Below the pieces are notes generated by a model. It was not told the DNA's origin, did no database searches, and worked only from the letters and a program-made list of their open reading frames with translations. The position numbers and the translations under genes were made by a program. From positions 1 through 64,000 of the forward strand of contig CAMXCT020002729.1 in the NCBI GenBank assembly GCA_947184155.2: a DNA stretch of 64,000 nt, read 5' to 3'. This stretch comes from Cladocopium goreaui (lineage: Eukaryota; Sar; Dinophyceae; Suessiales; Symbiodiniaceae). Below are positions 3,544 to 63,513 of this stretch, in pieces; position 1 is the stretch's first letter, and each line of letters opens with the position of its first letter.

Positions 3544-3653
3544 TACCCTTTGGTAAACTAACAAAACTAATTATGGAATATCACCATTTTTAATGGGACA
3601 ACTCACTATAAATGGCCATTTTCAATAGTTTTTTGTATGTTTACCAGAGGGTA
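3544..3653. mobile_element. family A MITE (introner-like)
   Basis: Terminal inverted repeats TACCCTTTGGTAAAC and GTTTACCAGAGGGTA enclose about 80 bp that includes the shared core TGGCCATTTTCAATAG. Confidence 0.85.
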
Positions 3654-3768
3654 AGTGGGGCCCCCGGGGCCCCAAGTAGCTTAGCCGGTTCGCCGTCGAA
3701 GATCTCTCCTAGCAGCCGGTATGGGTCCCATAATTTTAGAGCCAGGGGACCACCGAGTCTTGACTAAT

Positions 3769-4104
3769 CAGGAAGGGGCCCCCTAGTTACCCTCTGGTAA
3801 AAAAAATGGTGATCCAACTACCCATCCAGTTGGGGATGATATAATCCTATTGTTCCCATATAACCACCATATACCCTCTGGTAAACATACAAAAAACCAT
3901 TGAGCATGGTCATAGAAATAGTGGATTTACCCATCAATAGCATGGTGATTGTCCAGTTCGTTATGTAATCGTTTACCAGAGAGTATAAGTTGGTTTATAG
4001 ACCTTTTTAAACCATATAGTCAATATAGTTATAGTTATATGCCCTAACCCAATAGTTAACCTAGTTATAAGTCAGCTTAGCTAAGTATGGGGCCCCTTCC
4101 TGTA
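3769..4104. mobile_element. larger inverted-repeat element with a nested family A MITE
   Basis: The arms CAGGAAGGGGCCCC and GGGGCCCCTTCCTG are exact inverses. The family A copy at 3872-3985 sits inside, so it inserted later. Confidence 0.55.
3872..3985. mobile_element. family A MITE
   Basis: Starts TACCCTCTGGTAAAC and ends GTTTACCAGAGAGTA. It contains the family core AAATAGTGGATTTACCC. Confidence 0.85.
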
Positions 4105-4193
4105 CTAAGCATCCATTTTGGGAGTACCTGATTTTGACCCATACCCATGTCACCAATGATATAAGAGAAAATGGGTGTGATTCAATCTATCTC

Positions 4194-4283
4194 TACAGGA
4201 AGGGCGATAGATATAGCCATCATAAATCCTAGTTCTTATACTTATGAACCAAGTTAGCTGACGAACTGGGGTCCCTTCCTGTA
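4194..4283. mobile_element. short element with AGGAAGGG-type inverted ends
   Basis: TACAGGAAGGG at the left and CCCTTCCTGTA at the right are exact inverses. The ends are shared with the element at 3769. Confidence 0.5.
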
Positions 4284-4589
4284 ATTCACAATAATCATTG
4301 CCGTTGTACTTCACCGCTGGAAGCCCCGAATCAGATATTCGATTCTCTTCACAGGGAAATTCCAATGAATAGTAAACTGGTGTCACCAAATCCCCAAACC
4401 CTTCCTAAGATGATGACCAACATCTGTGTATATGATCCCGTATCTCGTGATCACGGATACATATGGAGACCATCACCATCTCGTGGGGGTGGAAGGGGGG
4501 CCACCAAATAATGGGCCATATATGCATGTATATATATATTATACCTAGACGCTCCAAAGTACCTAGAAAAATAAGTAAACATCCTAAAG

Positions 4590-4709
4590 CTGGTTGGTGG
4601 TTTCAAACATTTTTTTTTCCATAATATTTCCATTTCATATATGGGATGTCATCCTTTCCATTGACGAAGTCCATCATTTTTCAGAGGGGGTAGGTCAACC
4701 ACCAAGCAG
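4590..4709. mobile_element. family B MITE
   Basis: Starts CTGGTTGGTGGTTT and ends AACCACCAAGCAG. The body holds CATTTTTCAGAGGGGGTAG, typical of the family. It lies 15 bp upstream of a candidate exon. Confidence 0.85.
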
Positions 4710-4724
4710 AAAGTGGAGTTTCAG

Positions 4725-4776
4725 GGCCCTGAGATCCACTGCTTGTGGTGCCCTCTGTTTGCCTAACGGCCCTCGG
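4725..4776 (+). CDS. candidate exon (gene model 1, 5-prime part)
   Basis: A 52-bp island begins after GTTTCAG and ends before a GTTTTT donor. One frame reads LRSTACGALCLPNGPR and joins in phase 0 to the next island at 5443. Another frame has higher third-position G+C but reads into a stop. Frame uncertain. Confidence 0.3.
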
Positions 4777-4860
4777 GTTTTTAAGATCCAAAAAGTATAG
4801 GGATACGTCTACCCGGCCTGGTTATGTCAAGCCATAGCTATTGAAGTCATGGCCCAGTCG

Positions 4861-4932
4861 AAATAGTTGATGAATCCCCTAATTAAACATGGTGATTTTC
4901 CAGTTCGTTATGTAAACGTTTACCAGAGGGTA
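4861..4932. mobile_element. family A, right half only
   Basis: Matches the right half of family A from AAATAGTTGATG to GTTTACCAGAGGGTA. The left terminus is missing. Confidence 0.7.
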
Positions 4933-5042
4933 TATACTGTAATAGAAATTCAATCGTTATTATGGAGCACCCCCTTCCATTCATGATTTTTTGCATCCCA
5001 TTTCTTGATAACTAAGTCCCTATGTGTGCAGCTAAATCATCA

Positions 5043-5144
5043 CTGATTGGTGGTTTGGAACATTTTTTATTTTTCCATATATTGGGAATAATCATCCCAA
5101 CTGACTTTCATATTTTTCAGAGGGGTTAGTATACCACCAACCAG
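5043..5144. mobile_element. family B MITE
   Basis: Starts CTGATTGGTGGTTT and ends ACCACCAACCAG. Flanks ATCATCA and ATCATAT look like a 7-bp target duplication with two changes. Confidence 0.85.
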
Positions 5145-5282
5145 ATCATATTTTCAGCAAAGTTCCCATTTTCGATGCGAAGATATTTTTTGTCGGGTGG
5201 TTTCACGACACCATCTTGGATGATTTTTCATCAGTTAAATCCATCAGTATTTCATTGTTAAGTCAGAATTTCTGATGGATTA

Positions 5283-5391
5283 AGGCCGTTTGCCAATTAT
5301 CAATGGTTATAACTGGTTATTTCTCTGTGATTCTACATTCCATGAATGGGGTTTTCTAAGTACTTATAACTGGTATTTTGGGCCATAACTG
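5283..5391. mobile_element. family D MITE
   Basis: Shares with the other D copies AGGCCGTTTGCCAATTAT, CATGAATGGGGTTTT, AGTACTTATAACTGG and the end GGGCCATAACTG. The left tip CAGTTAT has been lost. Confidence 0.75.
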
Positions 5392-5442
5392 TGCTGTTGT
5401 TTTTGTGGCTAAGTCGCCATATTCTTTCCATTTCGGTCTCAG

Positions 5443-5541
5443 GCGGAGGGCAGCGTTTTAGCAGCCTCTCTTGCTCAGCGACTCGGTGTCACGAGCGGAG
5501 CGAAGACCCTGAGAATGGGAGAAAGGAACCATTTCACAGTA
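5443..5541 (+). CDS. exon of gene model 1
   Basis: A G+C-rich island follows the pyrimidine-rich acceptor TTTCGGTCTCAG. The phase 0 frame reads AEGSVLAASLAQRLGV and continues to SGAKTLRMG before a possible GTATAA donor near 5536. A second frame is also open with similar codon bias. No family was recognised. Confidence 0.45.
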
Positions 5542-5684
5542 TAATGTGGTAAACCCAACTATATATATATAATTATATATATACACATAATGGAACTATA
5601 ATTCGGTTTAATGAATATGTATGATTATTTAAGAAAGAAACCAATGTCTATGGACTTCATGCAAACGAACTTCGACTTGCACAG

Positions 5685-5829
5685 CGTTCACAATTCAATT
5701 TGGCCCTGGTGACCCTGATTTTGAGCATTTTGGAGAAGGTGACCAACATCAAGATCTTTGACATAAGCACTAGAGCACTGGCTTGGATAGAAATTTCCTC
5801 AAAGGCCTCCATTTCTGACTTACCCTCTG
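5685..5829 (+). CDS. exon of gene model 1
   Basis: Follows the acceptor GACTTGCACAG. The frame with strong third-position G+C reads NLALVTLILSILEKV followed by TNIKIFDIS, an amphipathic segment. It enters in phase 0. Codon bias weakens after about 5780, so the exon may end there, at a GC donor near 5807, or run to the donor CTCTG/GTTATG inside the family A element that starts at 5821. Function unknown. Confidence 0.5.
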
Positions 5830-5907
5830 GTTATGGCTGACATAACCATGGGAAATGGCCCATTTATAGATGGTTTACCTATTAAAAATGGTGATTTTCC
5901 ATGGCGA
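5821..5907. mobile_element. family A2 MITE, right end eroded
   Basis: Starts TACCCTCTGGTTATGG and ends near CCATGGCGAACTGTT. The intact relative at 30748 continues AGTCATAACCAGATGGTA, which is absent here. Confidence 0.75.
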
Positions 5908-5932
5908 ACTGTTCATCTCAAACTTCGGGAAG

Positions 5933-5993
5933 GACTTGGTGCCGTGCTGGAAGACTCCATCAAATCATGCCGGAGAACATGTCGCTATACTTG
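5933..5993 (+). CDS. candidate exon of gene model 1
   Basis: G+C-rich island directly after the family A2 element, with acceptor CGGGAAG. All three frames are open: DLVPCWKTPSN, LGAVLEDSIKSC and QIMPENMSLYL. The first fits the phases of its neighbours. It ends where the family I repeat begins. Confidence 0.3.
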
Positions 5994-6123
5994 GTGGTTC
6001 AACCCACTTCCTAAGTCGGTTAGTTCGCCCTAGTTATTTCAGTGGATGAATACCCTACTTGTCCCACTTGATGATAAGCAGGTTATAACCCACTTAGGAT
6101 CCGTGGCTAGTTGACCACCAAGT
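5989..6123. mobile_element. family I inverted-repeat element
   Basis: Ends ACTTGGTGGTT and GACCACCAAGT are inverse. The body shares GTGGATGAATACCCTACTT and other blocks with 25269-25399. Confidence 0.65.
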
Positions 6124-6162
6124 ACTACAGGAGATTTAACCTTTTGCCGTGGGCCATTTCAG

Positions 6163-6196
6163 AGAAGGTCGGCAACAGTTGCCTATTTTGTACGGG
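6163..6196 (+). CDS. short exon of gene model 1
   Basis: Acceptor TGGGCCATTTCAG and donor GTAATG frame a 34-bp exon. The frame with high third-position G+C reads KVGNSCLFCTG. It leaves in phase 2, as the exon at 7604 requires. A longer alternative frame (TVAYFVRGNALILVGG) has poorer codon bias. Confidence 0.4.
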
Positions 6197-6239
6197 GTAA
6201 TGCGCTCATCCTTGTAGGAGGTGTCACATGTTGTCACTA

Positions 6240-6348
6240 TAGTTATGGCCGTTTACTAATTATAAATTGTTATACCTGGTTATTTCTATGCGAAGTCCAT
6301 AAATGGGGTTATATATAAGTACTTATAATTGGTAAAGGGCCATAACTG
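6240..6348. mobile_element. family D MITE
   Basis: Starts TAGTTATGGCCGTTTA and ends GGGCCATAACTG, with the family core ATAAATGGGGTTATATAT. Confidence 0.8.
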
Positions 6349-7017
6349 TATGGGATGTGTGATTGCTGGTGAGTTATCGCATCGGTGTAATTGCTTTTAT
6401 TGTTGGGTTTACCACATGATATAAAACTTCAGAATATGTTTGTGTATACATATATATATATATGTATGTATAATGTAGTAAACACAATAACAAACGTGGA
6501 TGGTTTGTTGGGTTTACCACATTATGAGAATCGGCCAAAGTGACATGCAAAGAAACATGTATGATTGCATCAGAAGTATATAAATTTCACAATTCTAGTT
6601 GATATTTGGTAAAACAGCTGATATACATAATATTCCACACATGGAATTTCAATGTTGGACAGACCCTGAACATAACCCATGTTCAGCTTCGAAAGTGGTT
6701 TTCTAACCCCCGACTCAACTCCAAGGTTGTCATGCCATGCGTGAACCGAACTTTTTTGGGGAGATGGAGTCAATGTGGGTGCCCGCAACCGTAAATGGGT
6801 TTATAAGCCTATCTACTACAGATATTTGCCACAAAGCATAGTTTAACTTAGTTAGAAAGTAACTTATGAAGCAACGTCCAAGGTGCTTCTTTAACAGTGG
6901 TTGAATCTCAGGAAATAGGTGAAGATCACCACTTCGATTCCCAGGGATGCATCTCAAAATGGACACCCCATTTTCAGCGAAATTTTGGGCATTCCCAGGG
7001 ATGTCAGAAACATATAT
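6349..7017. other. no gene seen
   Basis: A+T-rich intron-like sequence. TTGGGTTTACCACAT occurs at about 6403 and 6508 and suggests a further decayed element. Confidence 0.5.
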
Positions 7018-7128
7018 CTGGTTGGTGCTTTGGAACATGAATTTCATGACTTTCCATTCATTTGGGAATTTCATCATCCCAACTGACGAACTTATATTTT
7101 TCAGAGGGGTAGGTCAACCACCAACCAG
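7018..7128. mobile_element. family B MITE
   Basis: Starts CTGGTTGGTGCTTT and ends AACCACCAACCAG, with CATCCCAACTGACGAAC and TTTCAGAGGGGTAGG inside. Confidence 0.9.
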
Positions 7129-7603: not shown

Positions 7604-7663
7604 GAACAACAGTGTTGTTCATGTGAACGTGGAGTCCGCAGCCTCAGTCGAACTGGCGAAGCG
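7604..7663 (+). CDS. exon of gene model 1
   Basis: Follows GTTGCCGCACAG and precedes GTTTGT. The chosen frame (1 base in, 2 bases out) reads NSVVHVNVESAASVELAK. Eleven of 18 codons end in G or C, against 7 of 20 in the competing frame. It joins in phase to 6163 and 7970. Family unknown. Confidence 0.6.
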
Positions 7664-8053: not shown

Positions 8054-8083
8054 GTCAATCTTGGATGGGTAGAAACTAAGCCG

Positions 8084-8865: not shown

Positions 8866-8990
8866 CTGGGTAAATTTCATCACGACCGAACCCTGTTCTC
8901 TCGAACCCTGGAATCATGGTTAGGATTCGGGGAATCATCCCCTTTTATGGCCGCAAGATTCAGGTTAGTGAAATATTATAATTTACCCAG
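8866..8990. mobile_element. family C MITE
   Basis: Starts CTGGGTAAATTT and ends AATATTATAATTTACCCAG, with TGGAATCATGGTTAGGATT in the body. Confidence 0.9.
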
Positions 8991-9156: not shown

Positions 9157-9254
9157 CTGGTTGCTGGTTTGGAACATTTTTTATTTTCCATAATATATGG
9201 GATAATCCTTCCCATTGACTAATATTTTTCAAGATGGTTAAAACCACCAACCAG
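9157..9254. mobile_element. family B MITE, short subfamily
   Basis: Starts CTGGTTGCTGGTTT and ends AAACCACCAACCAG. The 98-bp form has CCATTGACTAATATTTTTCA. TTAT flanks both ends. Confidence 0.9.
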
Positions 9255-9397: not shown

Positions 9398-9445
9398 GTT
9401 ACCAGCAAAAGTGATCCTGTTTTGCCTTTTGGAGTGTACAGTTAC

Positions 9446-9551
9446 TTACTTGTGCTACACGTAGGGAATTTTCGGGAATGATCCACTGGCTAACTATCAA
9501 TAATCCTACTCCCACAGCAACCCATCCATTCCCTACGTTTAGCACCAGTAA
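9446..9551. mobile_element. family E element
   Basis: Termini TTACTTGTGCTACACGTAGG and CCTACGTTTAGCACCAGTAA are near-inverse. The body GAATTTTCGGGAATGATCC is shared with copies at 20424 and 32499. Confidence 0.8.
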
Positions 9552-9578
9552 GCCAAATATTCGGATTATCAGCATGTT

Positions 9579-9804: not shown

Positions 9805-9918
9805 TACCCTCTGGTAAACATATACAAATAGCTATTGAAAATGGCCATAGAAATAGTGGATTTAGCCATTAATAGCATGGTGATTTTCCATAGGTATGTA
9901 AACGTTTGCCAGTGGGTA
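9805..9918. mobile_element. family A MITE
   Basis: Starts TACCCTCTGGTAAAC and ends GTTTGCCAGTGGGTA, with AAATAGTGGATTTAGCC inside. Its right end overlaps the left end of the next element. Confidence 0.85.
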
Positions 9919-11138: not shown

Positions 11139-11358
11139 CTGGTTGGTGGTTTGGAACATTTTTATTTTTCCATATATCGGGAATGTCATCATCCCAACTG
11201 ACGAACTCCATCATTTTCCAATCGCGTTGCCCTGCTGGCATTTGTTTCGCTGACTTTGCCAGCTTGGTCGCCCATTTTTCCTTGCCGTTTTTGCCTTACC
11301 ATGTGCTTTCAGCATGCTCTGCTAGCAGTTTCAGAGGGATAGGTATACCACCAACCAG
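11139..11358. mobile_element. family B MITE split by a 110-bp insertion
   Basis: Normal B ends (CTGGTTGGTGGTTT and ATACCACCAACCAG) and body, but about 11219-11328 is foreign. This segment has about 50 percent G+C and is rich in CTTGCC and GCTAGC-like words. It is absent from every other B copy. Confidence 0.8.
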
Positions 11359-12105: not shown

Positions 12106-12229
12106 CTGGTTGTTGGTTTAGAACATGGCTTTTATGACTTTCCAATACCTTCCATATATTGGGAATGTCATCATCCCAACTGACGAACTCCATCATTTTT
12201 CAGAGGGCTTGCGAAAAAACACCAACCAG
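12106..12229. mobile_element. family B MITE
   Basis: Starts CTGGTTGTTGGTTTAG and ends CACCAACCAG. It lies 25 bp upstream of the terminal exon of gene model 1. Confidence 0.85.
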
Positions 12230-12469: not shown

Positions 12470-12556
12470 CCTAAAACCCTAAACGCTAAAACCCTGAAAG
12501 CCTAAATCCTAAAACATCCTAAAACCATAAACCCTGAACACTCTGAATCCTAAACA
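12470..12556. repeat. degenerate telomere-like repeat
   Basis: A run of CCTAAA-type units (TAAAACCCTAAACGC, AAACCCTGAAAGCC, AAATCCTAAAAC and similar). It resembles the plant and algal type TTTAGGG telomere on the opposite strand, decayed and internal. Confidence 0.6.
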
Positions 12557-13274: not shown

Positions 13275-13438
13275 TGTTAGATGTCTCTATAGTCAACAGG
13301 GGTTATAAATTTATAGACCAGGAAAGAGAACTGGGGAGGCCCACCTTGTATTGATGAAGTGAAATCATGTGAAATCGAACAATAACACATCCCCAAAAGA
13401 GGATTATTATTGGGTATATGCCCCATATTGGATTATTC

Positions 13439-13549
13439 TGGGTAAATTATAACGACCTCACTACGACCTCACTGGAAATCATGGTTAGTAAGGGAAATCA
13501 TCCCCAAATGGCCTTAATTCAGGTTAGTGAAATATTATAATTTACCCAG
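13439..13549. mobile_element. family C MITE
   Basis: Starts CTGGGTAAATTATAACG and ends TTATAATTTACCCAG. ATTATT directly flanks both ends, consistent with a target duplication. Confidence 0.95.
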
Positions 13550-15446: not shown

Positions 15447-15467
15447 TTATATATAATATATAATATA

Positions 15468-15588
15468 TGGGTAAATTAAAATATTTCACTAACCTGAAAC
15501 AAGGCCATTTGAGGATGATGTCCCTATTGTTTCCCCTACTAAGCATCATTCCAGTGAGGTGGCAGTGAGGTCCTTATAATTTACCCAT
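15468..15588 (-). mobile_element. family C MITE, inverted orientation
   Basis: Reads TGGGTAAATTAAAATATTTC at the left and GTGAGGTCCTTATAATTTACCCA at the right (segments shown under 25 bp overall; ends are inverse), the reverse of the other C copies. ATATA flanks both sides. Confidence 0.85.
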
Positions 15589-17465: not shown

Positions 17466-17562
17466 CTGGTTGGTGGTTTCAAACATTTTTTATTTTCCAT
17501 ACTATATGGGATAATCCGTCCCATTGACTAATATTTTTCAGATGGTTAAAACCACCAACCAG
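17466..17562. mobile_element. family B MITE, short subfamily
   Basis: Starts CTGGTTGGTGGTTTC and ends AAACCACCAACCAG. TATT flanks both ends. Confidence 0.95.
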
Positions 17563-17901: not shown

Positions 17902-18080
17902 GTGGCCTTACAACAGAAATATGTATGTCAAACCATGTCAAAGCTACAAGGTGGTACCCGTTCGATAGCGTTCAGTGGGTGCAAATAACTCCAATCACTA
18001 TGGTTTTTGTTGGTGATATATCTATAGTTTTCAAGGGCTTATAACCAAAATATGTATGTCAAACCTACAATAACCTCCAG

Positions 18081-20064: not shown

Positions 20065-20108
20065 GTTCGTTAAGGAAAGCATCATGGAAGCCGCTAAGGG
20101 AACCCCTG

Positions 20109-20228
20109 CAGTTATGGCCGTTTACCAATTGTGAATGGTGAAATAACTGGTTAATTCTAAATGGGATTATATAATACATAAATGGGGTTATAAAGTACTT
20201 AATATAACTGGTTTTTTGGGCCATAACT
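20109..20228. mobile_element. family D MITE
   Basis: Starts CAGTTATGGCCGTTTACC and ends GGGCCATAACTT. Coding-like sequence (see 19963) reaches its left edge, where CA/GTTATG is a potential donor. Confidence 0.85.
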
Positions 20229-20423
20229 TTTGGAAAACCCATAGGTTAAATGATTTTGTTGGGGGATTTCCCCGGGATTTTTTTTTTGCTTATGAGAACT
20301 AAGATTAAGTTCGTTGAAATAACTACAAGAACTGGGATTTATGCTAGATGTATCTAGATATATCTATGATTAATGGGGTGTAATGACCAAACATCACTGA
20401 CGGAAGGCAGCCTTCAACTAGCC

Positions 20424-20537
20424 TTACTGATGCTCAGTCGGGAATTTTCGGGAATGATCCACTGGCTAACTATGAATCATCCCAGCAACCCCCAGCAACC
20501 CCCAGCAACCCCCATTCCATTCCCTACGTAAAACGCA
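20424..20537. mobile_element. family E element
   Basis: TTACTGATGCTCAGTCGG, GAATTTTCGGGAATGATCC and CATTCCCTACGTAAAACGCA. It includes three CCCAGCAAC repeats. The AG just after the right end serves the next exon. Confidence 0.75.
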
Positions 20538-22471: not shown

Positions 22472-22588
22472 CTGGGTAAATTATAACAACCTCTCTGCGA
22501 CCGAAACCTGGAATCATGGTTACTAAGGGAAATCATCCCCTTTTATGGCCGAACTATTCAGGTTAGTGAAATATTATAATTTACCCCG
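22472..22588. mobile_element. family C MITE
   Basis: Starts CTGGGTAAATTATAAC and ends TTATAATTTACCCCG, so its own acceptor is mutated. The next exon begins 14 bp downstream. Confidence 0.9.
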
Positions 22589-22678: not shown

Positions 22679-22831
22679 GTTATTGGTTCCTTTGCTGGTT
22701 AACCTCATGTTTGATTGCTAAAAAGCACTTGTTTTACCTGGCACAGCCAGTTGCAAGTTGGTTTACAACCCTATCTAACATGGTGTGATTTCACTATGCT
22801 TTATGGTATGTTAAGAACTAATTACTACAAG

Positions 22832-22955
22832 GTGGTGCCCCCCAGTTATAACTTGGCTATAGGCCCATTATCCATAGATATATCAACTATAATTTCCATA
22901 GTGAAATTGGAGTTATTTGCGCCAACTTAGCTATCGAACGGGGGCACCAGCTTGT
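22832..22955. mobile_element. family F palindromic element
   Basis: CAAGGTGGTGCCCCCCAG at the left mirrors GGGGGCACCAGCTTG at the right. Relatives or half copies lie near 15792, 17741, 17941, 23105, 24850, 27053, 29431, 35055-35190 and 42414-42525. Confidence 0.65.
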
Positions 22956-23440
22956 ATTGTTTATAGATGTTATGGCCATAGAATGACGTAACTCCTGCAA
23001 CTAGTTGTGAAACATATTACTTGAATGCTGTTTTCTTAGCCAGTTATAGCTGTTACAGTAATTGCAATAACTACTGTATAGTTTATAAACCCAGAAACAA
23101 AACTGGGGGGCACCACCTTGTATGAGGTCCAAAGTAGAGTATCCCATTGATAAGTGGGTTTTAAGCCCACTCAACTGGTTCAACCTTGGTTAGATACGAA
23201 CTAGTACTTTAATCTTCTATGGTAAAATTTGTCAGCGAAAAATTAGAGATTTTGTCAGGTCCTAATTAAAGAACTCATGTTGAAATCTAAGCCTCCCCAA
23301 AAACCTAGGATTCCAAGCTTCACCGAATGATTCACCTGCGATTTTTACTCCCCCCAGAAACTCCATGTTTACCAAGAATATCCTTATTGTAGCCCTATAA
23401 AATCATATAAATCCCTATAAAATCCCTTCAAACTCCCAGG

Positions 23441-23530
23441 CACCGTTCGGCACCGTTCGGCACCGTTCGGCACCGTTCGGCACCGTTCGGCACCGTTCGG
23501 CACCGTTCGGCACCGTTCGGCACCGTTCGG
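23441..23530. repeat. nine tandem copies of CACCGTTCGG
   Basis: Nine exact 10-bp units. They end 16 bp before the acceptor of the next exon, where a pyrimidine tract would be expected. Confidence 0.95.
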
Positions 23531-23546
23531 CCGCTTGCGCCTCGAG

Positions 23547-24168: not shown

Positions 24169-24266
24169 CTGGTTGGTGGTTTGGAACATTTTTTATTTTC
24201 CATAATACATAGGATAATCCTTCCCATTGACTAATATTTTTCAAGATGGCTAAAACCACCAACCAG
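24169..24266. mobile_element. family B MITE, short subfamily
   Basis: Starts CTGGTTGGTGGTTTGG and ends AAACCACCAACCAG. Confidence 0.95.
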
Positions 24267-28270: not shown

Positions 28271-28364
28271 TTGGCAATGGGGAATTTCCGACGCGCTAAG
28301 GCTTTCCTAAGGCCATGGGAGTTCGGAATGGTTGGAAGAAGAAATTGCAGCAATAAGGAAACTG
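28271..28364 (+). CDS. candidate exon left of a family B element
   Basis: Open frame RRAKAFLRPWEFGMVG and RRNCSNKET reaches the element edge, where CTG/GTTGGT can act as donor. Modest codon bias. The start is not defined. Confidence 0.3.
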
Positions 28365-28468
28365 GTTGGTGGTTTGGAACATTTGTTATTTTTCCATTCA
28401 GTTGGGAATCATCATCCCAACTGACTTTCACTCCATCATTTTTCAAGATGGCTAAAACCACCAACCAG
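28362..28468. mobile_element. family B MITE, possibly a complete intron
   Basis: CTGGTTGGTGGTTTGG to AAACCACCAACCAG. Flanks AAGGAAA and AAGGGAA resemble a 7-bp target duplication with one change. Removing 28365-28468 as GT-AG joins two open frames. Confidence 0.9.
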
Positions 28469-31777: not shown

Positions 31778-31889
31778 CTGATTGGTGGTTTGGAGCATTA
31801 ATTTTATTTTCCATTTTATATATGGGATGTCATCCCAACCCCATTGACGAACTCATATTGTTCAAGATGGTTTTTCAACCACCAAGCAG
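31778..31889. mobile_element. family B MITE
   Basis: CTGATTGGTGGTTTGG to CAACCACCAAGCAG. Confidence 0.85.
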
Positions 31890-32306: not shown

Positions 32307-32347
32307 GGACCTGCAGCAAAATACACTTCGGAACTTGTTAGCCTCTG
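32307..32347 (+). CDS. candidate exon ending at a MITE donor
   Basis: DLQQNTLRNLLAS, after a possible acceptor AAGTAAGGAG, ends exactly at CTCTG/GTAAAC of the family A element that begins at 32339. Upstream the frame is open from MASKE at 32294. Confidence 0.35.
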
Positions 32348-32457
32348 GTAAACATAGAAAAAGCTATGGAAAATCACCATCTTTGAGTTCTGTAAATCAA
32401 CTATTTCTATGGGCAATTTTCAAGTTCGCAAACTGTAACAGTCGTTACTAGAGGCTA
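32339..32457. mobile_element. family A MITE, variant termini
   Basis: TAGCCTCTGGTAAAC to GTTACTAGAGGCTA. Both ends changed together (CCCTC to GCCTC, GAGGG to GAGGC), keeping the inverse pairing. TTGT flanks both sides. Confidence 0.85.
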
Positions 32458-32498
32458 TTGTTCAATATCAGATATCATTTTCCTCATGATTGATTGTC

Positions 32499-32627
32499 TT
32501 ACTGGTGCTTAGTAGGGAATTTTCGGGAATGATCCACAATAACTATTAGTATCTATTAGTAATTAATCCCAGCAACCCCCAGCAACCCAACCCCCAGCAA
32601 CCCATCCAGCAACCCTACGTAAAACGC
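32499..32627. mobile_element. family E element
   Basis: TTACTGGTGCTTAGTAGG, GAATTTTCGGGAATGATCC, CCCAGCAAC repeats and CCTACGTAAAACGCA. Confidence 0.8.
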
Positions 32628-32629
32628 AC

Positions 32630-34849: not shown

Positions 34850-34946
34850 CTGGTTGGTGGTTTCAAACATTTTTATTTTTCACAATATATGGGATAATCC
34901 TTCCCATTGACTAATATTTTTCAACATGGTTAAAACCACCAACCAG
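34850..34946. mobile_element. family B MITE, short subfamily
   Basis: CTGGTTGGTGGTTTC to AAACCACCAACCAG. TAAT on both flanks. Confidence 0.95.
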
Positions 34947-37401: not shown

Positions 37402-37513
37402 CTGGGTAAATTATAACAACCTCACTGCGACCTCACTGGAAATCATCGTTAGTAAGGAGAATCATCCCAAAATGGCCTTAATTCAGGTTAGTGAATTATT
37501 ATAATTTACCCAG
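37402..37513. mobile_element. family C MITE with clear target duplication
   Basis: CTGGGTAAATTATAAC to TTATAATTTACCCAG. Both sides are directly flanked by ATTGATT, a 7-bp direct repeat. Confidence 0.95.
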
Positions 37514-37940: not shown

Positions 37941-38052
37941 TACCCTCTGGTAAACTTACAAAAAGCTATTGAAAATGGCCATAGAAATAGTTGATTTACC
38001 CGTTAATAGCATGGGGATTTTCCATAGTTGTTTGTATGTTTACCAGAGGGTA
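37941..38052. mobile_element. family A MITE with extended inverted flanks
   Basis: TACCCTCTGGTAAAC to GTTTACCAGAGGGTA. The flanks AATCCATA and TATGGATT extend the inverted repeat by 8 bp. Confidence 0.95.
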
Positions 38053-45009: not shown

Positions 45010-46640
45010 GAAGCAGGGCGGTTTTGCAGACAGTGCGCTGTGAAAGGGTGTTTTTGGCTTATGTTGGGGTTACATTTGGCCACGTGGACGGGCCGTCATG
45101 TGCCAAGAGGGTTGCATTTCTAGACACCGTGCTCGGTCTGGTGGCCATTTTGGAAGGCATGTTGAAGGGCAGGTTTGCAGACAGTGTGCCCTGATAGGGT
45201 CTTTTTGGCTTACGTTGGGTTGCATTGGGCCAAGAGGGTAGCATTTCTAGACACCGCGCCCGGTTTTGATGCCATTTTGGAGGTATGTTGGCGGGCAAAT
45301 TTGCAAACGATGCGCCCTGATAGGGTGTTCTTGGCTTACGGTGGGGTTGCATTGGGCTAAAAGGGTTGCATTTCCAGACACCGCGCCCGGTTTTGAGGTC
45401 ATTTTGGAAATATGTTGGCTGGCAATTTTGCAAACGATGCGCCCTGATAGGGTGTTCCTGGCTTACGTTGGGGTTGCATTGGGCTAAAGGGGTTGCATTT
45501 CTAGACACCGCGCCCGGTTTTGAGGTGATTTTGGAGGTATGTTGGCGGGCAATTTTGCAAACAATGCGCCCTGATAGGGTGTTCTTGGCTTACGGTGGGG
45601 TTGCATTGGGCTAAAAGGGTTGCATTTCTAGACACCGCGCCCGGTTTTGAGGCCATTTTGGAGGTATGTTGGAAAGCAATTTTGCAGACAGTGCGCCCTG
45701 ATAGGGTGTTCTTGGCTTATGTTGGGGTTACATTGTGCTAAAAGGGTTGCATTTCAAGACACCACGCCCGGCTTTGAAGCAATTTTGGAGGTATGTTGGC
45801 GGGCAATTTTACAAACAATGTGCCCTGATAAGGTGTTCTTGTCTTACGCTGGGGTTACATTGGGCTAAAAGGGTCGCATTTCTAGGGACAGCGCTCGGTC
45901 TGGTGGCCATTTTGGAAGGATGTTGAAGGGCAGGTTTGCAGACAGTGCGCCCTGATAAGGTGTTCTTGGCTTACGTTGGGGTTTAAATTGGGCTAAAGGG
46001 TTGCATTTCTAGACACCGCGCCCGGTTTGGAGGCCATTTTGGAAGTATGTTGGCTGGCAATTTTGCAAACAATGCGCCCTGATAGGGTGTTCTTGGCTTA
46101 CGGTGGGGTTACATTGTGCTAAAAGGGTTGCGTTTCTAGACACCGCGCCCGGTTTTGAGGCCATTTAAAAGGTATGCTGGCGGGCAATTTTGCAAACAAT
46201 GTGCCTTGATAGGGTGTTCTTGGCTTACGGTGGGGTTACATTGGGCTAAAAGGGTTGCATTTCTAGACACCGCGCCCGGTTTTGAGGCCATTTTGGAGGT
46301 ATGTTGGCGGGCAATTTTGCAGACAATGCGGCATGATAGGGTGTTCTTGGCCTACGTTGGGGTTACATTTGGCCACATGGACGGGCTGTCATGTGCCAAG
46401 AGGGTAGCATTTCTAGACACCGCGCCCGGTTTGGTGTCCATTTTGGAGGTATGTTGTCGGGCAGTTTTGCTGACAGTGTTTCTTGATAGGGTGTTCTGGG
46501 TTTACGGTGGGGTTACATGGGGCCACAAGGGTTGCATTTTTAGACACCGTGCTCGGTCTGGCGACCATTTTGGAGGCATGTTGAAGGGCAGGTTTACAGA
46601 CAGTGCACCTTGATAGGGTTTTCTTGGCTTAGGTTGGGGC
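45010..46640. repeat. 127-bp satellite, about 12 copies
   Basis: The marker TAGGGTGTTC recurs at 45194, 45321, 45448, 45574, 45702, 45829, 45956, 46083, 46210, 46337, 46487 and 46614. Spacing is 126-128 bp except one of 150 bp that holds an extra ACATGGACGGGCTGTCATGT-type insert, also present in the first unit. The unit length is not a multiple of three, so the open frames (GCSWLTVGLHWAKRVAF) slip from copy to copy and are not taken as genes. Confidence 0.9.
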
Positions 46641-46760
46641 TGCATTGGGTCAAGATTCTTAGCATGTCATAAAGCAGGAGCTCATGTAGACTTGTAGAAG
46701 CTCCTTGCTTTATTTGCTTTGGATACAAATGTTCAGTACAACTAGATTCACCTTTGCTGT

Positions 46761-55135: not shown

Positions 55136-55985
55136 AATTTCTTTGGCAGGCTTTTGCTGAGAATGTGCATTGATATATTACAGATGTGGTTGCTTGTATC
55201 TAGCATTCACTTTCTAGTTAATCATGTCGTGATCTCGCAATTAATCAATTTATCAAACTATCTATATATCTAACTAGTCTATCTATCTATCTCTTTATCT
55301 ATCTATGTAAATATCTATTTATTTATCTTTCTATCTAGTTATCTATCTATCTATCTATGTATCTATCTATCTATCTACCTACCTATCTATCTATCTATCT
55401 ATGTATCTCTGTATGTATCCATCCATCTATCTATCTATCTTTCTGTCTATCTATCTACCTATCTACCTATCTACCTATCTGCATCTTCAGGAATTTATTT
55501 TTCTCTCTATTTACCTATGTATATATTTATGTATCTATCTATCTATCTATCTATCCATGCATCTATTTATCTATCTATCTATCTTTCTATCAATCAATCA
55601 ATCAATCTATTCAGATTTATTACCCATGTATTTAGTTGTGTTGATTTGTCAGTATGTCTATAAATACAAATATATATTTATTTTTTATTTGTATATGTCT
55701 AAAAAAAAAGTCTCTTCGCTTTTGGGAGGCAGCTTTCAAAAGAAAAGCTGTAAGGCCTGAAGTATGTCTGCAACTTTGGTTGTTTGTTTGTTGTTGTTTT
55801 TGTGTTTTAGGATGCTGGATTTGTGCAGGTGCAGCTTTGCTTTATGTATTGAAGTTTCTTGTCAGCAACCATATGTTTTTTTTCCATTGCCAGGAGATAG
55901 CCTATGTCAAATCGCTTTTGTCGCGCAGCTGGGTTCTCAGTTTTATATGTTTTGATGCTTTGGTGCACATATGAAATGTTTTTTC
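55136..55985. repeat. segmental duplication, copy 1
   Basis: Matches 61599-62370 apart from microsatellite length: TTTCTTTGGCAGGCTT, GTGCATTGATATATTACAG, CGCTTTTGGGAGGCAGC and TTGTCAGCAACCATATG occur in the same order in both. It contains only the end of the terminal exon (QAFAENVH and TGA at about 55169) seen complete at 61562-61637. Confidence 0.9.
55265..55620. repeat. TCTA/ACCTATCT microsatellite within the duplication
   Basis: CTATCTATC units with many variants. The counterpart at 61735-62000 differs in length and order. Confidence 0.95.
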
Positions 55986-56158: not shown

Positions 56159-56258
56159 NNNNNNNNNNNNNNNNNNNNNNNNNNNNNNNNNNNNNNNNNN
56201 NNNNNNNNNNNNNNNNNNNNNNNNNNNNNNNNNNNNNNNNNNNNNNNNNNNNNNNNNN
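56159..56258. other. assembly gap (100 N)
   Basis: Exactly 100 N, the usual placeholder for a gap of unknown size between two repeat types. Confidence 1.
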
Positions 56259-57580
56259 CGCCTGGCGTCCCTTGGTCTCCGCCCCTTTTGCGTGGCAGGC
56301 GTGGGACAATGTGCACTGCCAAGGGGTCGGATGTACGCCCTGGCGTCCCTTGGGTCTCCGCCTCGTTTGCGTGGCAGGCGTGGCACAGTGTGCACTGCCA
56401 AAGGGTCGGATGTACGCCCTGGCGTCCCTTGGGTCTCCGCCTCTTTTGCGTGGCAGGCGTGGCACAATGCGCACTGCCAAGGGGTCGGATGTACGCCCTG
56501 GCGTCCCTTGGGTCTCCGCCTCCTTTTGCGTGGCAGGCGTGGCACAATGTGCACTGCCAAGGGGTCGGATGTACGCCCTGGCGTCCCTTGGGTCTCCGCC
56601 TCTTTTGCGTGGCAGGCGTGGCACAATGTGCACTGCCAAGGGGTCGGATGTACGCCCTGGCGTCCCTTGGGTCTCCGCCTCTTTTGCGTGGCAGGCGTGG
56701 GACCATGTGCACTGCCAAGGGGTCGGATGTACTCCCTGGCGTCCCTTGGGTCTCCGCCGCTTTTGCGTGGCAGGCGTGGGACAATGTGCACTGCCAAGGG
56801 GTCGGATGTACGCCCTGGCGTCCCTCGGGCTCCGCGTCTTTTGCGTGGCAGGCGTGGGACAATGTGCACTGCCACGGGGTCGGATGTACGCCCTGGCGTC
56901 CCTCGGGCTCCGCGTCTTTTTGCGTGGCAGGCGTGGGACAATGTGAGCAGCCAAGGGGTCGGATGTACGCCCTGGCGTCCCTTGGTCTCCGCCTCTTTTG
57001 CGTGGCAGGCGTGGGACAATGTGAGCAGCCAAGGGGTCGGATGTACGCCCTGGCGTCCCTTGGTCTCCGCCTCGTTTGCGTGGCAGGCGTGGGACAATCT
57101 GCACCGCCAAGGGGTCGGATGTACGCCCTGGCGTCCCTTGGTCTCCGCCTCTTTTGCGTGGCAGGCGTGGGACAATGTGCACCGCCAAGGGGTCGGATGT
57201 ACGCCCTGGCGTCCCTTGGTCTCCGCCTCGTTTGCGTAGCAGGCGTGGGACAATGTGCACCGCCAAGGGGTCGGATGTACGCCCTGGCGTCCCTTGGTCT
57301 CCGCCTCGTTTGCGTGGCAGGCGTGGGACAATGTGCACTGCCAAGGGGTCGGATGTACGCCCTGGCGTCCCTTGGTCTCCGCCTCGTTTGCGTGGCAGGC
57401 GTGGGACAATGTGCACCGCCATCGGGTACGCCCTGGCGTCCCTTGGTCTCCGCGTCTTTTGCGTGGCAGGCGTGGGACAATGTGCACTGCCAAGGGGTCG
57501 GATGCACGCCCTGGCGTCCCTTGGTCTCCGCCTCTTTTGCTTGGCAGGCGTGGGACAATGTGCACTGCCAAGGGGTTGGA
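56259..57580. repeat. 78-79-bp G+C-rich satellite, about 17 copies
   Basis: CGGATGTACGCCCTGG recurs every 79 bp in the left half (GGGTCTCCGCC units) and 78 bp in the right half (GGTCTCCGCC units). One unit near 57420 lacks about 11 bp. The unit has few stops, so several frames on both strands stay open (GCTPWRPLGLRL and antisense RDARAYIRPLG). These are not taken as genes. Confidence 0.95.
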
Positions 57581-58690
57581 CTCACTCACTCACTCACTCA
57601 CTCACTCTCTCACTCACTCTCACTCTCTCTCTCACTCACTCACTCACTCTCACTCTCTCTCTCACTCTCTCACTCACTCTCTCACTCACTCTCTCACTCT
57701 CTCTCTCACTCACACTCACTCTCACTCTCTCACTCACTCTCTCACTCACTCTCACACTCACTCTCACTCACTCTCACACTCACTCTCACACACTCTCACT
57801 CACTCTCACTCACTCTCACTCACTCTCACTCACTCTCACTCACTCTCACTCACTCTCACTCACTCTCACTCACTCTCACTCACTCTCACTCACTCCCACT
57901 CACTCTCACTCACTCTCACTCACTCTCACTCACTCTCACTCACTCTCACTCACTCTCACTCACTCTCACTCACTCTCACTCTCACTCACTCACTCACTCA
58001 CTCTCTCACTCACTCTCACACTCACTCTCTCACTCACTCTCTCACTCACTCTCTCACTCACTCTCACACTCACTCTCACACTCACTCTCACACTCACTCA
58101 CACTCACTCACACTCACTCACGCTCACTCACACTCACTCACACTCACTCACACTCACTCACACTCACTCACACTCACTCACGCTCACTCACACTCACTCA
58201 CGCTCACTCACACTCACTCACACTCACTCACACTCACTCACACTCACTCACACTCACTCACACTCACTCACACTCACTCACACTCACTCACACTCACTCA
58301 CACTCACTCACTCACACTCACACTCACTCACACTCACTCACACTCACTCACACTCACTCACACTCACTCACACTCACTCACACTCACTCACACTCACTCA
58401 CTCTCACTCACTCTCACTCACACTCACTCACACTCACTCACACTCACTCACTCACACTCACTCACACTCACTCACACTCACTCACACTCACTCACACTCA
58501 CTCACACTCACTCACACTCACTCACACTCACTCACACTCACTCACACTCACTCACACTCACTCACACTCACTCACACTCACTCACACTCACTCACTCTCA
58601 CTCACTCACTCACTCACTCACTCACTCACTCACTCACTCACTCACTCACTCACTCACTCACTCACTCACTCACTCACACACTCACTCACT
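57581..58690. repeat. CACT / CTCACTCACA array
   Basis: Over 1.1 kb of CACTCACT, CTCTCACTCA and CACACTCACT units in blocks, C/A/T only on the + strand. His/Ser/Thr/Leu frames are artefacts. Confidence 0.95.
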
Positions 58691-60112: not shown

Positions 60113-60155
60113 GTCGAGGAAGATGTCTTCTGAGGCGGGACATGATCTCTTGCTT
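60113..60155 (+). CDS. possible short exon
   Basis: Acceptor GTGTGTTTTCTCAG. SRKMSSEAGHDLLL up to CTT/GTTGTG. Confidence 0.3.
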
Positions 60156-60522
60156 GTTGTGTTTTTTAATTTATTTTTTTGTTTTGCGTTGTTGTTTTTC
60201 GTTATTGTTGCAGTCTTTTTTTTGGCCACGTGGTGTGAGGCTGTTGCTGTTCCTGAGGCTGGTTATGGGCGGACAGACATATGTTGTTGTCGCTGTAGCT
60301 TGAAGAAGTTTGCTTTTTTCTTTAACGCATAGCATGTTGCATTGTTGTGAAATCTTGGTGTCTTGGAAGGTTGGTGCCTATCCTGCGGGTGGGCGTACTT
60401 TTGGTCGCCTCTATCCTCCAGGCTGGATTGTTGTTGTTCGTTTGGCTTTTTTCGTGTGTGCTTTCTGTGTGTGTGCGTTTTTTTTTTTCTCCTTCCTCTG
60501 TTTCTTGTTTTGCTTGACTCAG

Positions 60523-60633
60523 GTCCTCTGTTTCGCGGCGCGGCGTGCTTGGATTTCTGCGTGAAACCCAAGGGCGCCCGTCCGACGCACGTTTGGGAGC
60601 ATGTGGCGCTAAACCCTCGGGCTTTGCTCTTAG
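60523..60633 (+). CDS. exon of gene model 4
   Basis: Acceptor TTGCTTGACTCAG. The best-biased frame reads LFRGAACLDFCVKPKGAR, then PTHVWEHVALNPRALLL (24 of 36 codons ending in G or C). A second open frame is SRRGVLGFLRETQGRPS. No GT is at the end; a GC donor (TTAG/GCTGTG) fits. Confidence 0.5.
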
Positions 60634-60713
60634 GCTGTGTTTTGTTGTGTTGGTGATTCTGTTTCTTGTCGCTTTTTTTTCTCCTCTCTCCTCCCTCTCT
60701 TGGTTTTGCTTAG

Positions 60714-60790
60714 GATTCGCCCTGGCTTTCGTGGTCTAAGAGCGTTGAAGTTGCATTTTGGTTTGCGGTGGCGCAGGCCAATGCAGGCGG
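60714..60790 (+). CDS. exon of gene model 4
   Basis: Acceptor TTGGTTTTGCTTAG, donor GGCGG/GTGTTT. Candidate frames: SPWLSWSKSVEVAFWFAV, or RPGFRGLRALKLHFGLRW, which fits the phases of its neighbours. High-confidence island, frame open. Confidence 0.5.
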
Positions 60791-60862
60791 GTGTTTTTTT
60801 TTTGGTACGGGGGCCTTGCCTTGCAGTTCTGTTCTTTTTTTCCATACTTTTTCCTTGCGAAG

Positions 60863-60921
60863 GTGACCGCCGTGTCCTGGCTGTTCTTCGGCCCGGGGTT
60901 CATCTTTGGAACCTTGCTCAG
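60863..60921 (+). CDS. exon of gene model 4
   Basis: Acceptor CTTTTTCCTTGCGAAG, donor CTCAG/GTGCTC. The phase-compatible frame DRRVLAVLRPGVHLWNLAQ joins the next exon in phase 0. An alternative with higher third-position G+C is VTAVSWLFFGPGFIFGTLL, membrane-like. Confidence 0.5.
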
Positions 60922-61011
60922 GTGCTCGTTTTTCATGATAAGAAATTTCTTCATCTTTGCATTGTTTGCGAGTAATTTTTGCTTTGGTGTGTTATTTTTC
61001 CTTGGTTAAAG

Positions 61012-61146
61012 GACTGGTGGGTCGATCAACATGGAAGTTCCACTTGGCATGTACCAGCAAAGCTCTGGTACAAGGCCAAGAGGTACACCGACTGGGCGCA
61101 GGAGTCTCTTTCCGGCCCAGTCGGTGTTGAGGATCTTCTTTGCCAT
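61012..61146 (+). CDS. exon of gene model 4
   Basis: After TTCCTTGGTTAAAG the frame DWWVDQHGSSTWHVPAKL, WYKAKRYTDWAQESLSG and VGVEDLLCH is rich in Trp and Tyr and well biased. Donor CAT/GTTGCT. Phase 0 at both ends. Unspliced, the frame continues as a hydrophobic stretch to TGA at 61226. Confidence 0.6.
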
Positions 61147-61258
61147 GTTGCTACTTGCTGGCATTATATATTTTGTTTGCTTGGGGTCGGTTTGATACTT
61201 TTGGTCGCTGTAGCATTTTTTTTTTGATGGTCTTTTCTTCTTGCTTGTTGCTGCTCAG

Positions 61259-61300
61259 GACTTTGAGGTGACCGCCGAGGACGTGGTGTGGGCCAACAAG
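61259..61300 (+). CDS. 14-codon exon of gene model 4
   Basis: Canonical acceptor GTTGCTGCTCAG and donor AACAAG/GTGAGA bound DFEVTAEDVVWANK, phase 0 at both ends, almost all codons ending in G or C. One of the cleanest small exons in the window. Confidence 0.75.
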
Positions 61301-61412
61301 GTGAGATCTCACGATGTGCTGTTCCCAGTTGTTTGTTTGCTTTTTTTTGAGGGTTGCTTTGTTTTTGCTGGGCTTTTGATTGTGTTGTTTTTGGCATCCA
61401 TCTGTTTCTGAG

Positions 61413-61475
61413 GTCCTTGAGCCACCGCCGCACCGTAAGGGTTTGTTGCAACAGGCGGCAGCGTATTTTGGAAAT
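61413..61475 (+). CDS. exon of gene model 4
   Basis: Acceptor ATCTGTTTCTGAG. VLEPPPHRKGLLQQAAAYFGN reads into a GTTTGTTTG microsatellite whose first GT is the donor. Confidence 0.55.
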
Positions 61476-61530
61476 GTTTGTTTGTTTGTTTGTTTGTTCG
61501 TTCGTTCGTTCGTTTGTTTGTGTGTGTGCG
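61476..61530. repeat. GTTT/GTTC microsatellite at an intron start
   Basis: GTTTGTTTGTTTGTTC units directly after the exon. Confidence 0.9.
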
Positions 61531-61561
61531 CGTGTGTATGCATGTGTTTGTGTGTGCTCAG

Positions 61562-61637
61562 CATTTTTGAAGGCGCTGTCATTGCCGCGATGAAGCGGCG
61601 ATTTCTTTGGCAGGCTTCTGCTGAGAATGTGCATTGA
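61562..61637 (+). CDS. terminal exon of gene model 4
   Basis: Acceptor TGTGTGTGCTCAG. IFEGAVIAAMKRRFLWQ, then ASAENVH, ends in TGA at 61635. Basic amphipathic helix followed by stop. Its last 13 codons or so lie in the segmental duplication, and a truncated copy sits at about 55141-55171. Confidence 0.65.
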
Positions 61638-61959
61638 TATATTACAGATGTGGTTGCTTGTATCTAGCATTCACTTTCTAGTTAATCATGTCGTGATCCT
61701 TCTAGCAATCAATCAATCAAACAATCAAACTAACTATTTATCTATTTATCTTTCGACCTGTCTATCTATCTCTCTATCAATGCATTTATCTATCTATCAA
61801 TGTATTTATCTATCTATCTATCTATCTATCTAAATCTATCTATCTATGAATCCATCTATCTATCTATCTATCCATCTATCTATCAATCAATCAATCAATC
61901 TATCTACCTACCTATCTATCTATCTATCTATCTGTCTATCCATCTATGTATCTATCAAT

Positions 61960-61993
<34 letters not shown>

Positions 61994-62460
61994 GTCTATT
62001 CAGATCTATTACTCATGTATTTACTTGTGTTGATTTGTCTGTATGTCTACAAATATATATACATATAAATTTATATTTATATTTGTATATGTCCAGTAAA
62101 GAAGTTTCTACGCTTTTGGGAGGCAGCTTTCAAAAGAAAAGCTGTAAGGCCTGAAGTATGTCTGCAACTTAGGCTGTTTGTTGTTGTTTTGTGTTTTAGG
62201 ATGCTGTATTTGTGCAGGTGCAGTTTTGCTTTATATATTGAAGTTTCTTGTCAGCAACCATATGTGTTTTTTTTTCCATTGCCAGGAGACAGCCTATGTC
62301 AAGTCGCCTTTGTCGCGGAGCGGGGTTCTCAGTTTTATCTGTTTTGATGCTTTGGTGTACATATGAAACGTTTTGTTTTTTTTTTGTGTCGTTGTTTCAC
62401 TGTTTGGCGGTTTTAGCTTTGGCCATGGTTTTTCTTTCTAGCGTCCCCGCCAGGTGCAGT
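61599..62460. repeat. segmental duplication, copy 2
   Basis: See 55136. The junction is contiguous here, without the satellite block found in copy 1. A more diverged short relative lies near 40830-40880 (GAGAGGCAGCCTTCAAAG). Confidence 0.9.
61735..62000. repeat. TCTA and CAATCAAT microsatellite
   Basis: CTATCTATC units with ATCAATCAATCA blocks. Confidence 0.95.
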
Positions 62461-62790
62461 TTCACTGGTTATGATGGACCGTGGTGCCATAAGAAGAAAT
62501 GGTACTCGGTGGCAGCTGACGCTCCAGTTGCTGCGCATCTGACATGGGGTGCTCGCGTCAAATGGTTCTTGCTGCTTTGGAAATCATACCTCAAAGGGAA
62601 CAAAGTCACCATACCACAAAAGGTGGCACGCCCATGTTCGGCCTCGGTGGCCAAGTGGTTGGTATGCTACCGATTGCGTTGGACAAAGCCACAGGTCGAC
62701 GAGGTGGACGCAATAGTGTTCGCCCAATTGCGGCGCCAAGTGGTCACTGCCAAAGATGTGGCCCTTCTGACTGCCGCAAAGACGGTCTGA
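62454..62790 (+). CDS. long terminal exon of unknown gene
   Basis: Acceptor AGCGTCCCCGCCAG. Frame FTGYDGPWCHKKKWYSVA, HLTWGARVKWFLLLWKSYL, NKVTIPQKVARPCSASV, KWLVCYRLRWTKPQVDEV and LRRQVVTAKDVALLTAAKTV, with TGA at 62788. About 110 codons with consistent bias, rich in Trp and Lys. No family recognised. A retroelement-derived or host gene are both possible. An overlapping frame (GGQVVGMLPIALDKATGRRG) is also long. Confidence 0.6.
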
Positions 62791-62860
62791 GCCCGAACAA
62801 AGAGCGGGTCGCGAGGTCGTTCGGCAGCCTCGTGGCCCCCCAAATAACGTGAAATAACGT

Positions 62861-62896
62861 GTAATATTTTTCAGAGGGCTTGAAACCACCCACCAG
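62861..62896. mobile_element. family B, right end only
   Basis: TAATATTTTTCAGAGGGCTTG and AAACCACCCACCAG (segments of the family B right half). First MITE trace after the MITE-poor zone. Confidence 0.6.
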
Positions 62897-62921
62897 TATA
62901 AGCTGATTGTTTTCGAGGTTG

Positions 62922-63152
62922 ATGCCAATTTCAATCAATGAGCCGAACGCATCTTCGGCCTTGGCTACCGCGCAGGTGTACCAACTCTTGCGCAACCGCT
63001 GGGTTGCAGTGGTGCCACTGCCTCCAGTTGCGGAGTCGGATCCTGAAGCTGCCGATGGGATCGAAGCTCCGACAGCGTTCTGTGGAATCCAAACCAGGTT
63101 GAAACTCTGGCAGGACCTGATCGGGAGATACTTGGAGGATCCCAGCAACTGA
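62922..63152 (+). CDS. exon or small gene
   Basis: Frame MPISINEPNASSALATA, QVYQLLRNRWVAVVPLPP, VAESDPEAADGIEAPTAF and LKLWQDLIGRYLEDPSN, with TGA at 63150. An internal acceptor CGCGCAG at about 62975 could begin the exon at VYQLL. Acidic with strong third-position G+C. Unknown family. Confidence 0.6.
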   Translation: MPISINEPNASSALATAQVYQLLRNRWVAVVPLPPVAESDPEAADGIEAPTAFCGIQTRLKLWQDLIGRYLEDPSN

Positions 63153-63413
63153 GTAACTGGGATACAGTAACCACCATTTATACATGGTATAACATGGTAT
63201 AGCCCAGTGATTGGGGACCATTTACTAAGTGGAAGGATCCTCCAAGTACTTCAAGTTGCTTACGTCGAAATCCACGAGTGGTAGAGACATATAGTCAAGG
63301 ATTCGCTTCATGAAACGCTTGTGGCTTCTCTAGGCTGTTTTTTGGGCCCAAACGCAGTTCGGATGGCTTAGATGAAAGTGTGATGCAACATGATTGAATC
63401 ATATATTTCCATC

Positions 63414-63513
63414 TACTCTCTGGTAAAGGTTGACATAGCTATGGAAGCCATGGTCCATAGACCTACGAAAAATGGTGATTTTCTATAGCTATGTAACAAA
63501 TCACCAGAGGGTA
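63414..63513. mobile_element. family A MITE
   Basis: TACTCTCTGGTAAAG to AAATCACCAGAGGGTA. Confidence 0.8.

Follow-up and report, generated by a model that had tools for sequence, protein, structure and literature searches.

A candidate introner-type MITE family and strand-locked inverted-repeat elements in the dinoflagellate Cladocopium goreaui

We analysed a stretch of 64,000 nucleotides of Cladocopium goreaui (the window; bases 1-64,000 of contig C2729, CAMXCT020002729.1, in an assembly of 1.166 Gb that is eukaryotic). By signature, about ten families of short inverted repeats, miniature inverted-repeat transposable elements (MITEs), crowd the first ~40 kb of the window. Two of them, here called B and C, are the subject of this report, with families A, D and E for comparison. 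We consider it probable that family B is at once an introner and a DNA transposon with terminal inverted repeats (TIRs), and that B and C keep to the sense strand, most likely through insertion or survival in one orientation only.

Inverted-repeat families in the window

Classical MITEs are short, have inverted ends, occur in many copies and lie in both orientations. A similarity scan of the window for families A to D gave 53 non-overlapping hits, copies or fragments (A 19, subfamily A2 6, B 15, C 7, D 6), of which 51 fall in 3,544-38,523. The same scan of the reversed window gave no hits to these families. The total includes the window copies that served as queries, and it takes the interrupted B element at 11139 as two hits. 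An earlier sequence-only reading of the window had described A, B, C and D as separate repeat families with inverted ends, with about 45 copies or fragments in 37 kb, and the scan bears out both statements. That reading did not include the one-orientation bias of B (15 forward, none reversed), D (6 and 0) and most of C (6 and 1). Family A is mixed (14 forward, 5 reversed), as is A2 (5 and 1). A further MITE family, G (CTTACTGGTGCT...), lies at 9445-9553, 20423-20537 and 32498-32628, with one shared orientation in 3/3 copies.

Families B and C are MITEs by their short length, TIRs, target site duplications (TSDs) and high copy number. In the RNA folds of three B copies, one C copy and one A copy (5/5), the two ends pair with each other. 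Genome-wide, there are 5,117 exact 26-mers of family A and 73 exact matches of family E, while a family D 30-mer has only 7 copies and intact copies of D are few. Family A is partly palindromic, with a self-complement identity of 0.64-0.72, and a TA target duplication is indistinguishable from its palindromic TACCC...GGGTA ends.

The sequence-only reading also held that all four families start with donor-like GT and end with acceptor-like AG sequence, and so converge on splice sites. Ends of the form CTGG...CCAG are found in B and C only. The inverted repeat of A is longer, TACCCTCTGGTAAAC...GTTTACCAGAGGGTA, and its GT and AG are internal to the repeat, and D has TACAGTTATGGCC.... A random 15-nt inverted repeat carries CT followed by GT, and hence GT and AG after inversion, with a probability of 0.20. 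With about ten MITE families, a few ends of this kind are therefore unsurprising by themselves, and the convergence is weak evidence when taken alone.

Family B as an introner-type element

The genome was searched for two gene families, TCP-1 chaperonin and kinesin, in which the profile positions give the order of the exons. In a kinesin gene on contig C3546, a B element separates, base-exactly, two exons that cover positions 196-259 and 258-327 of the motor profile. The junction reads ...AACATCAACAAGA GTTT CTGGTTGG...CCACCAACCAG GTTT GAGTGCC..., where the element extends from CTGGTTGG to CCACCAACCAG, and the intron borders are ...AACAAGA/GTTT-(B)-/GTTTGAGTGCC. Removing the element and one GTTT yields NINKSLSALGNVI and restores the conserved motor domain. 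The joined protein is gapless at the junction when compared with solved kinesins (PDB 3zfc, best E 7.8e-42) and matches the Pfam kinesin domain with an E of 1.1e-53. This base-exact fit points to a donor at the GT of the GTTT target duplication and to an acceptor at the terminal CCAG. Another B element, a diverged one, has the duplication GTCA and is found at C132:58877-59004. Here one frame, once spliced, stays open for 145 codons across the junction, whereas left unspliced it meets stops inside the element.

An introner is taken here as an element whose insertion makes a new intron, one that interrupts coding sequence exactly. Judged by protein continuity at C3546 and by the reading frame at C132, family B is an introner-type MITE at these two loci; we infer actual splicing of the two introns from DNA alone.

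The duplication flanking B is exact at 4 bp in 20/41 copies and at 3 bp in 0/41. It should be noted that 32 of the 41 come from loci picked because they have GT in the left duplication; the other nine are unselected window copies, and 6/9 of these are exact at 4 bp. In GT-type copies the two free duplication bases agree in 14/17. A branch-point-like motif (CTGAC, TTGAC or ACTAAT) lies at -39 to -50 of the terminal AG in 10/10 sense copies and in 0/10 antisense copies (the scan covered 10 of 11 full copies in the window), and it is followed by TATTTTTCAG in most B copies listed. Taken together, the sense-only motif and TATTTTTCAG suggest that one orientation of B carries a whole 3' splice module that is absent from the other.

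We suggest that family B is a DNA transposon of the TIR type, ~100 bp long and non-autonomous, that makes a 4-bp target duplication. Where it inserts into coding sequence and the duplicated 4 bp start with GT, the pre-mRNA would be cut before this GT and after the terminal CCAG, which would take out the element and one duplication and restore the reading frame. The body of B would supply the remaining 3' splice signals, in one orientation only, as the branch-point-like motif ~40-50 nt from the end and then TATTTTTCAG. The sequence-only reading had instead proposed that the terminal repeat supplies both splice sites (CTG/GT...ACCAG/), making an insertion spliceable in either orientation. GT and AG do occur in the repeats, and the acceptor half of the idea agrees with the terminal CCAG that ends both B introns. 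The donor half does not agree, since the frame-restoring donor sits in the target duplication in both B introns and a cut at CTG/GT would add 7 nt. Together with the position of the two examined A copies inside introns and the nearly sense-only orientation of B and C among the matches listed, both described below, this makes the proposal very improbable.

Family A was examined in two genes, both read by eye. On C3546 the A element is intronic, ~24 nt past a GC donor placed from the protein. In a gene on C3535, which by its homologues we take to be CCT1-like, the A element is likewise within an intron, upstream of the acceptor. In neither gene do the borders of A coincide with those of the intron, so the idea that its ends act as splice sites does not hold for the two copies checked. 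By arithmetic, GT-AG removal of A adds 13 nt, a frame shift, if the target duplication is TA. The same removal from C leaves CTGG and a 6-bp duplication, which is again a frame shift. The C duplication is 6 bp (or 4, when the T and A beside it are counted with the repeat), exact at 6 in 7/20 and at 7 in 3/20; four of 20 fetched loci without a recognisable 5' end were dropped from this sample and four window copies added. With a duplication of 6 bp the target would stay altered after GT-AG removal, and as the duplication begins with A it offers no GT donor. No insertion of C was found in coding sequence. A branch-point-like motif occurs in 0/4 sense and in 3/4 antisense copies of C, at -51 or -58, which argues against a reading of C based on splicing. 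The reading of ten kinesin introns, without a formal test, showed no obvious inverted ends.

Most B copies are probably not introns, and several observations weigh against B as an introner. Two introns, both on kinesin contigs, stand against 2,140 exact sub-pattern copies in the genome. At C132 the spliced product has no Pfam domain at cut-off and frame continuity is its sole support; moreover, another frame reads through the element when it is unspliced, although that frame meets stops on either side. A further B copy, the third close to a gene, carries the duplication ACTT and gives stops in all three joined frames. GT-type copies are not enriched: the left duplication has GT in 1,090 and TG in 1,050 copies genome-wide, and a symmetric test gave 50 full elements with the donor in sense against 46 mirror images (n=96, each carrying GT, or the mirror of it, at its two ends; the first 100 of 810 places, classed by eye, with four palindromic rows dropped). 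Among GT-left copies with a recognisable 3' end, a matching right GT duplication was found in only 4/18 (the first 20 copies, two of them without such an end). ORF (open reading frame) continuity over 17 GT-type copies, after 7/24 loci that failed the script pattern had been left out, gave no clear coding-exon cases. If B and C were ordinary MITEs without a special link to splicing, and the two introns lucky co-options, then the unenriched GT-type duplications and the sampled copies without clear coding context would be as expected. We find this unlikely, given that the frame is restored exactly at two loci, that B has its 3' splice module in one orientation only, and that B and C show a strand lock absent from A and E.

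Strand orientation of families B and C

The strands of neighbouring copies were compared among the matches listed, i.e. the first 100 places per pattern, covering about the first 340 of 6,202 contigs. Neighbouring B copies lie on the same strand in 40/40 pairs within 50 kb, 57/59 within 100 kb and 79/83 within 200 kb; the best of 10,000 permutations reached 61 against the 79/83 observed. A third B list, partly overlapping the first, gave 21/22 within 200 kb. Neighbouring C copies agree in 17/17 pairs within 50 kb, and C agrees with the nearest B in 32/32 cases within 50 kb, 47/48 within 100 kb and 61/66 within 200 kb. The claim that the elements are spliced out whichever way they insert therefore fails for B and C, which among the matches listed are almost always in sense.

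Families A and E behave differently. Neighbouring A copies share a strand in 18/39 pairs within 50 kb, and A compared with the nearest B within 100 kb is on the same strand in 25 cases and on the opposite strand in 19. For family E the figure is 5/12. Fisher tests gave p = 8e-9 for B vs A, p = 5e-5 for C vs A and p = 5.9e-6 for B vs E. The orientation of families A and E is apparently random; both resemble ordinary MITEs of the classical kind, from which B and C differ in being oriented.

The strand of B and C is also that of genes. A kinesin or kinase gene has the strand of the nearest B or C on 11/11 contigs in both lists, four of them at 177-412 kb, and the same holds at fetched loci on C3546 and C2646, giving 13/13 contigs checked. 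The flanks of the fetched B copies have almost no base skew (AT 0.002, GC 0.021), so base skew does not explain the lock. The lock extends to B copies that offer no usable GT donor. Long one-way gene domains are described for dinoflagellates in PMC8110479 and PMC9412976. By the strand concordance among the matches listed, B and C are tied to the sense strand of such domains, probably inserting or surviving in one orientation only relative to transcription. Against such a lock count the scope of the listed matches, the incomplete independence of neighbouring pairs, and the controls: A is imperfect owing to its partial palindromy, and E is the better control but small.

Two causes come into question, oriented insertion and sense-only survival. 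Selection would act if B and C inserted both ways and antisense copies in transcribed DNA were purged for spoiling pre-mRNA processing, sense copies being harmless. The 3' splice module of B, present in the sense direction only, is in favour of this. So is the table of PMC9412976, which gives Cladocopium goreaui a mean gene length of 15.7 kb against 2.0 kb of coding sequence (CDS); much of the genome would then be transcribed and many insertions would fall in introns. Micromonas introners are likewise described as sense-only in transcribed regions (PMC3879977). Selection is harder to reconcile with copies that lack a usable GT donor and are equally locked, with family C, locked despite its branch-point-like motif being found in antisense, and with A and E, present in both orientations. 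The near-absolute concordance would also demand very strong selection on non-coding copies. We regard selection as a serious but somewhat less than even possibility.

The near-absolute lock of unspliceable copies in two unrelated families, with A and E apparently random, means that it could not have been selected through the copies' own splicing. For this reason we lean towards oriented insertion over selection against antisense copies. Two unrelated TIR transposons, with 4-bp duplications in B and ~6-bp duplications in C, may insert into the one-way gene domains with a fixed orientation to transcription or to co-directional replication, a suggestion we make tentatively. If true, B and C would be oriented before any selection, which would pre-adapt them to become introns. 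An RNA route, i.e. reverse splicing followed by reverse transcription, would likewise give sense-only insertion and agree with the lock; it was proposed for Micromonas introners (PMC3879977). It hardly fits B and C, since their 4-bp and ~6-bp target duplications and inverted ends indicate DNA transposition, and we give it very little credence.

Comparison with known introners and further features of the window

The legend to Fig. 2B of Gozashti et al. 2022 (PMC9860276) describes introners of Symbiodinium microadriaticum with a TIR, a 4-bp duplication, their own acceptor and a borrowed donor. Family B has the same set of features: a 4-bp TSD, a TIR, its own 3' splice site and a TSD-derived 5' splice site. 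By this description it looks like a new member of the kind; the portion of that paper compared here does not mention a strand lock of non-coding copies. Many introner families within one dinoflagellate genome, as here, are attributed to Polarella and other dinoflagellates by Roy et al. 2023, as summarised in a review (PMC11453091). The Micromonas introner elements (PMC3879977) resemble B in having a branch-point motif inside the element and in being sense-only in transcribed regions; their authors propose RNA-based spread, whereas TIRs and target duplications here indicate DNA transposition. The introner elements of Amoebophrya (Farhat et al. 2021, PMC7789003) have inverted repeats at the intron ends and short direct repeats, as here, but mostly non-canonical splice sites, in contrast to the GT donor and AG acceptor of B. 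Our literature search, in which Roy et al. 2023 itself was outside the comparison, found no description of strand-locked non-coding introner copies, which is not a claim that none is published.

Introners are among the leading explanations of why introns are gained in bursts. Should transcription orient cut-and-paste MITEs, new introns would be correctly oriented above chance, which bears on the question why genomes of the dinoflagellate type have so many introns. One-way gene domains could also be mapped from DNA alone by the strand of B and C. Elements of A and E type beside those of B and C type in one genome offer a built-in control for selection versus oriented insertion.

The window copies are listed in Table 1.

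Table 1. Copies of the inverted-repeat families in the window
Element	Position	Strand	Target duplication	Remarks
Family B MITE	17466..17562	+	TATT (4 bp)	full length
Family B MITE	4590..4709	+	AAAG	
Family B MITE	5043..5144	+	ATCA	
Family B MITE	7018..7128	+	exact 4-bp duplication no longer present	
Family B MITE	9157..9254	+	TTAT	
Family B MITE	11139..11358	+	TGTT	~110 nt unrelated sequence inside
Family B MITE	12106..12229	+	exact 4-bp duplication no longer present	
Family B MITE	24169..24266	+	exact 4-bp duplication no longer present	
Family B MITE	28362..28468	+	exact 4-bp duplication no longer present	
Family B MITE	31778..31889	+	TTTT	
Family B MITE	34850..34946	+	TAAT	
Family C MITE	8866..8990	+		ends CTGGGTAAAT...ATTTACCCAG
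Family C MITE	13438..13549	+	ATTATT	
Family C MITE	22472..22588	+		
Family C MITE	37402..37513	+	ATTGATT	
Family C MITE	15467..15588	-		only reversed window copy; ends ATGG...CCAT, terminal AG lost
Family A foldback MITE	3544..3653	-		reversed
Family A foldback MITE	3872..3985	+		
Family A foldback MITE	9805..9918	+		
Family A foldback MITE	32339..32457	-		reversed
Family A foldback MITE	37941..38052	+		long hairpin
Family A copy	63414..63513	+		end of the range of the sequence-only reading
Family D MITE	6238..6350	+		ends TATAGTTATGGCC...GGCCATAACTGTA
Family D MITE	20107..20230	+		
Family E MITE	22826..22956	+		TACAAGGTGGTGCCCCC; orientation control
Family E MITE	17945-18053	-		second window copy, reversed

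Searches for genes and known RNAs in the window gave little. Rfam at gathering scores had no match in the window, and Pfam against 78 window ORFs gave one match only (DUF6883, E 0.0028), nothing useful for genes. Two plus-strand frames of the first 15 kb, with X at stops, gave one sub-threshold match only. The core of the dinoflagellate spliced leader was absent from 349,801 bases scanned with at most one mismatch, and the window has a single match to it with 2 mismatches, no more than expected by chance. Elsewhere in the assembly, contigs C1 (>7 Mb) and C2380 have intronless single-ORF chaperonin and kinase matches and are probably bacterial.

Perfect 10-bp direct repeats (GGCACCGTTC, ~10 copies) lie between MITEs at 23439-23541, and degenerate CCCTAAA-like repeats at 12475-12550 are internal to the contig. 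A tandem array with a 127-bp unit, ~10 or more copies that are 75-93% alike, occupies 45090-46682. A second array, with a 78-79-bp unit, is located at 56190-57690, followed by a long microsatellite-like tract and adjoined by a run of 100 N at 56159-56258. The regions 55137-55982 and 61601-62374, ~6.5 kb apart, have similar ends and both start with ATTTCTTTGGCAGGCTT, apparently a local duplication.

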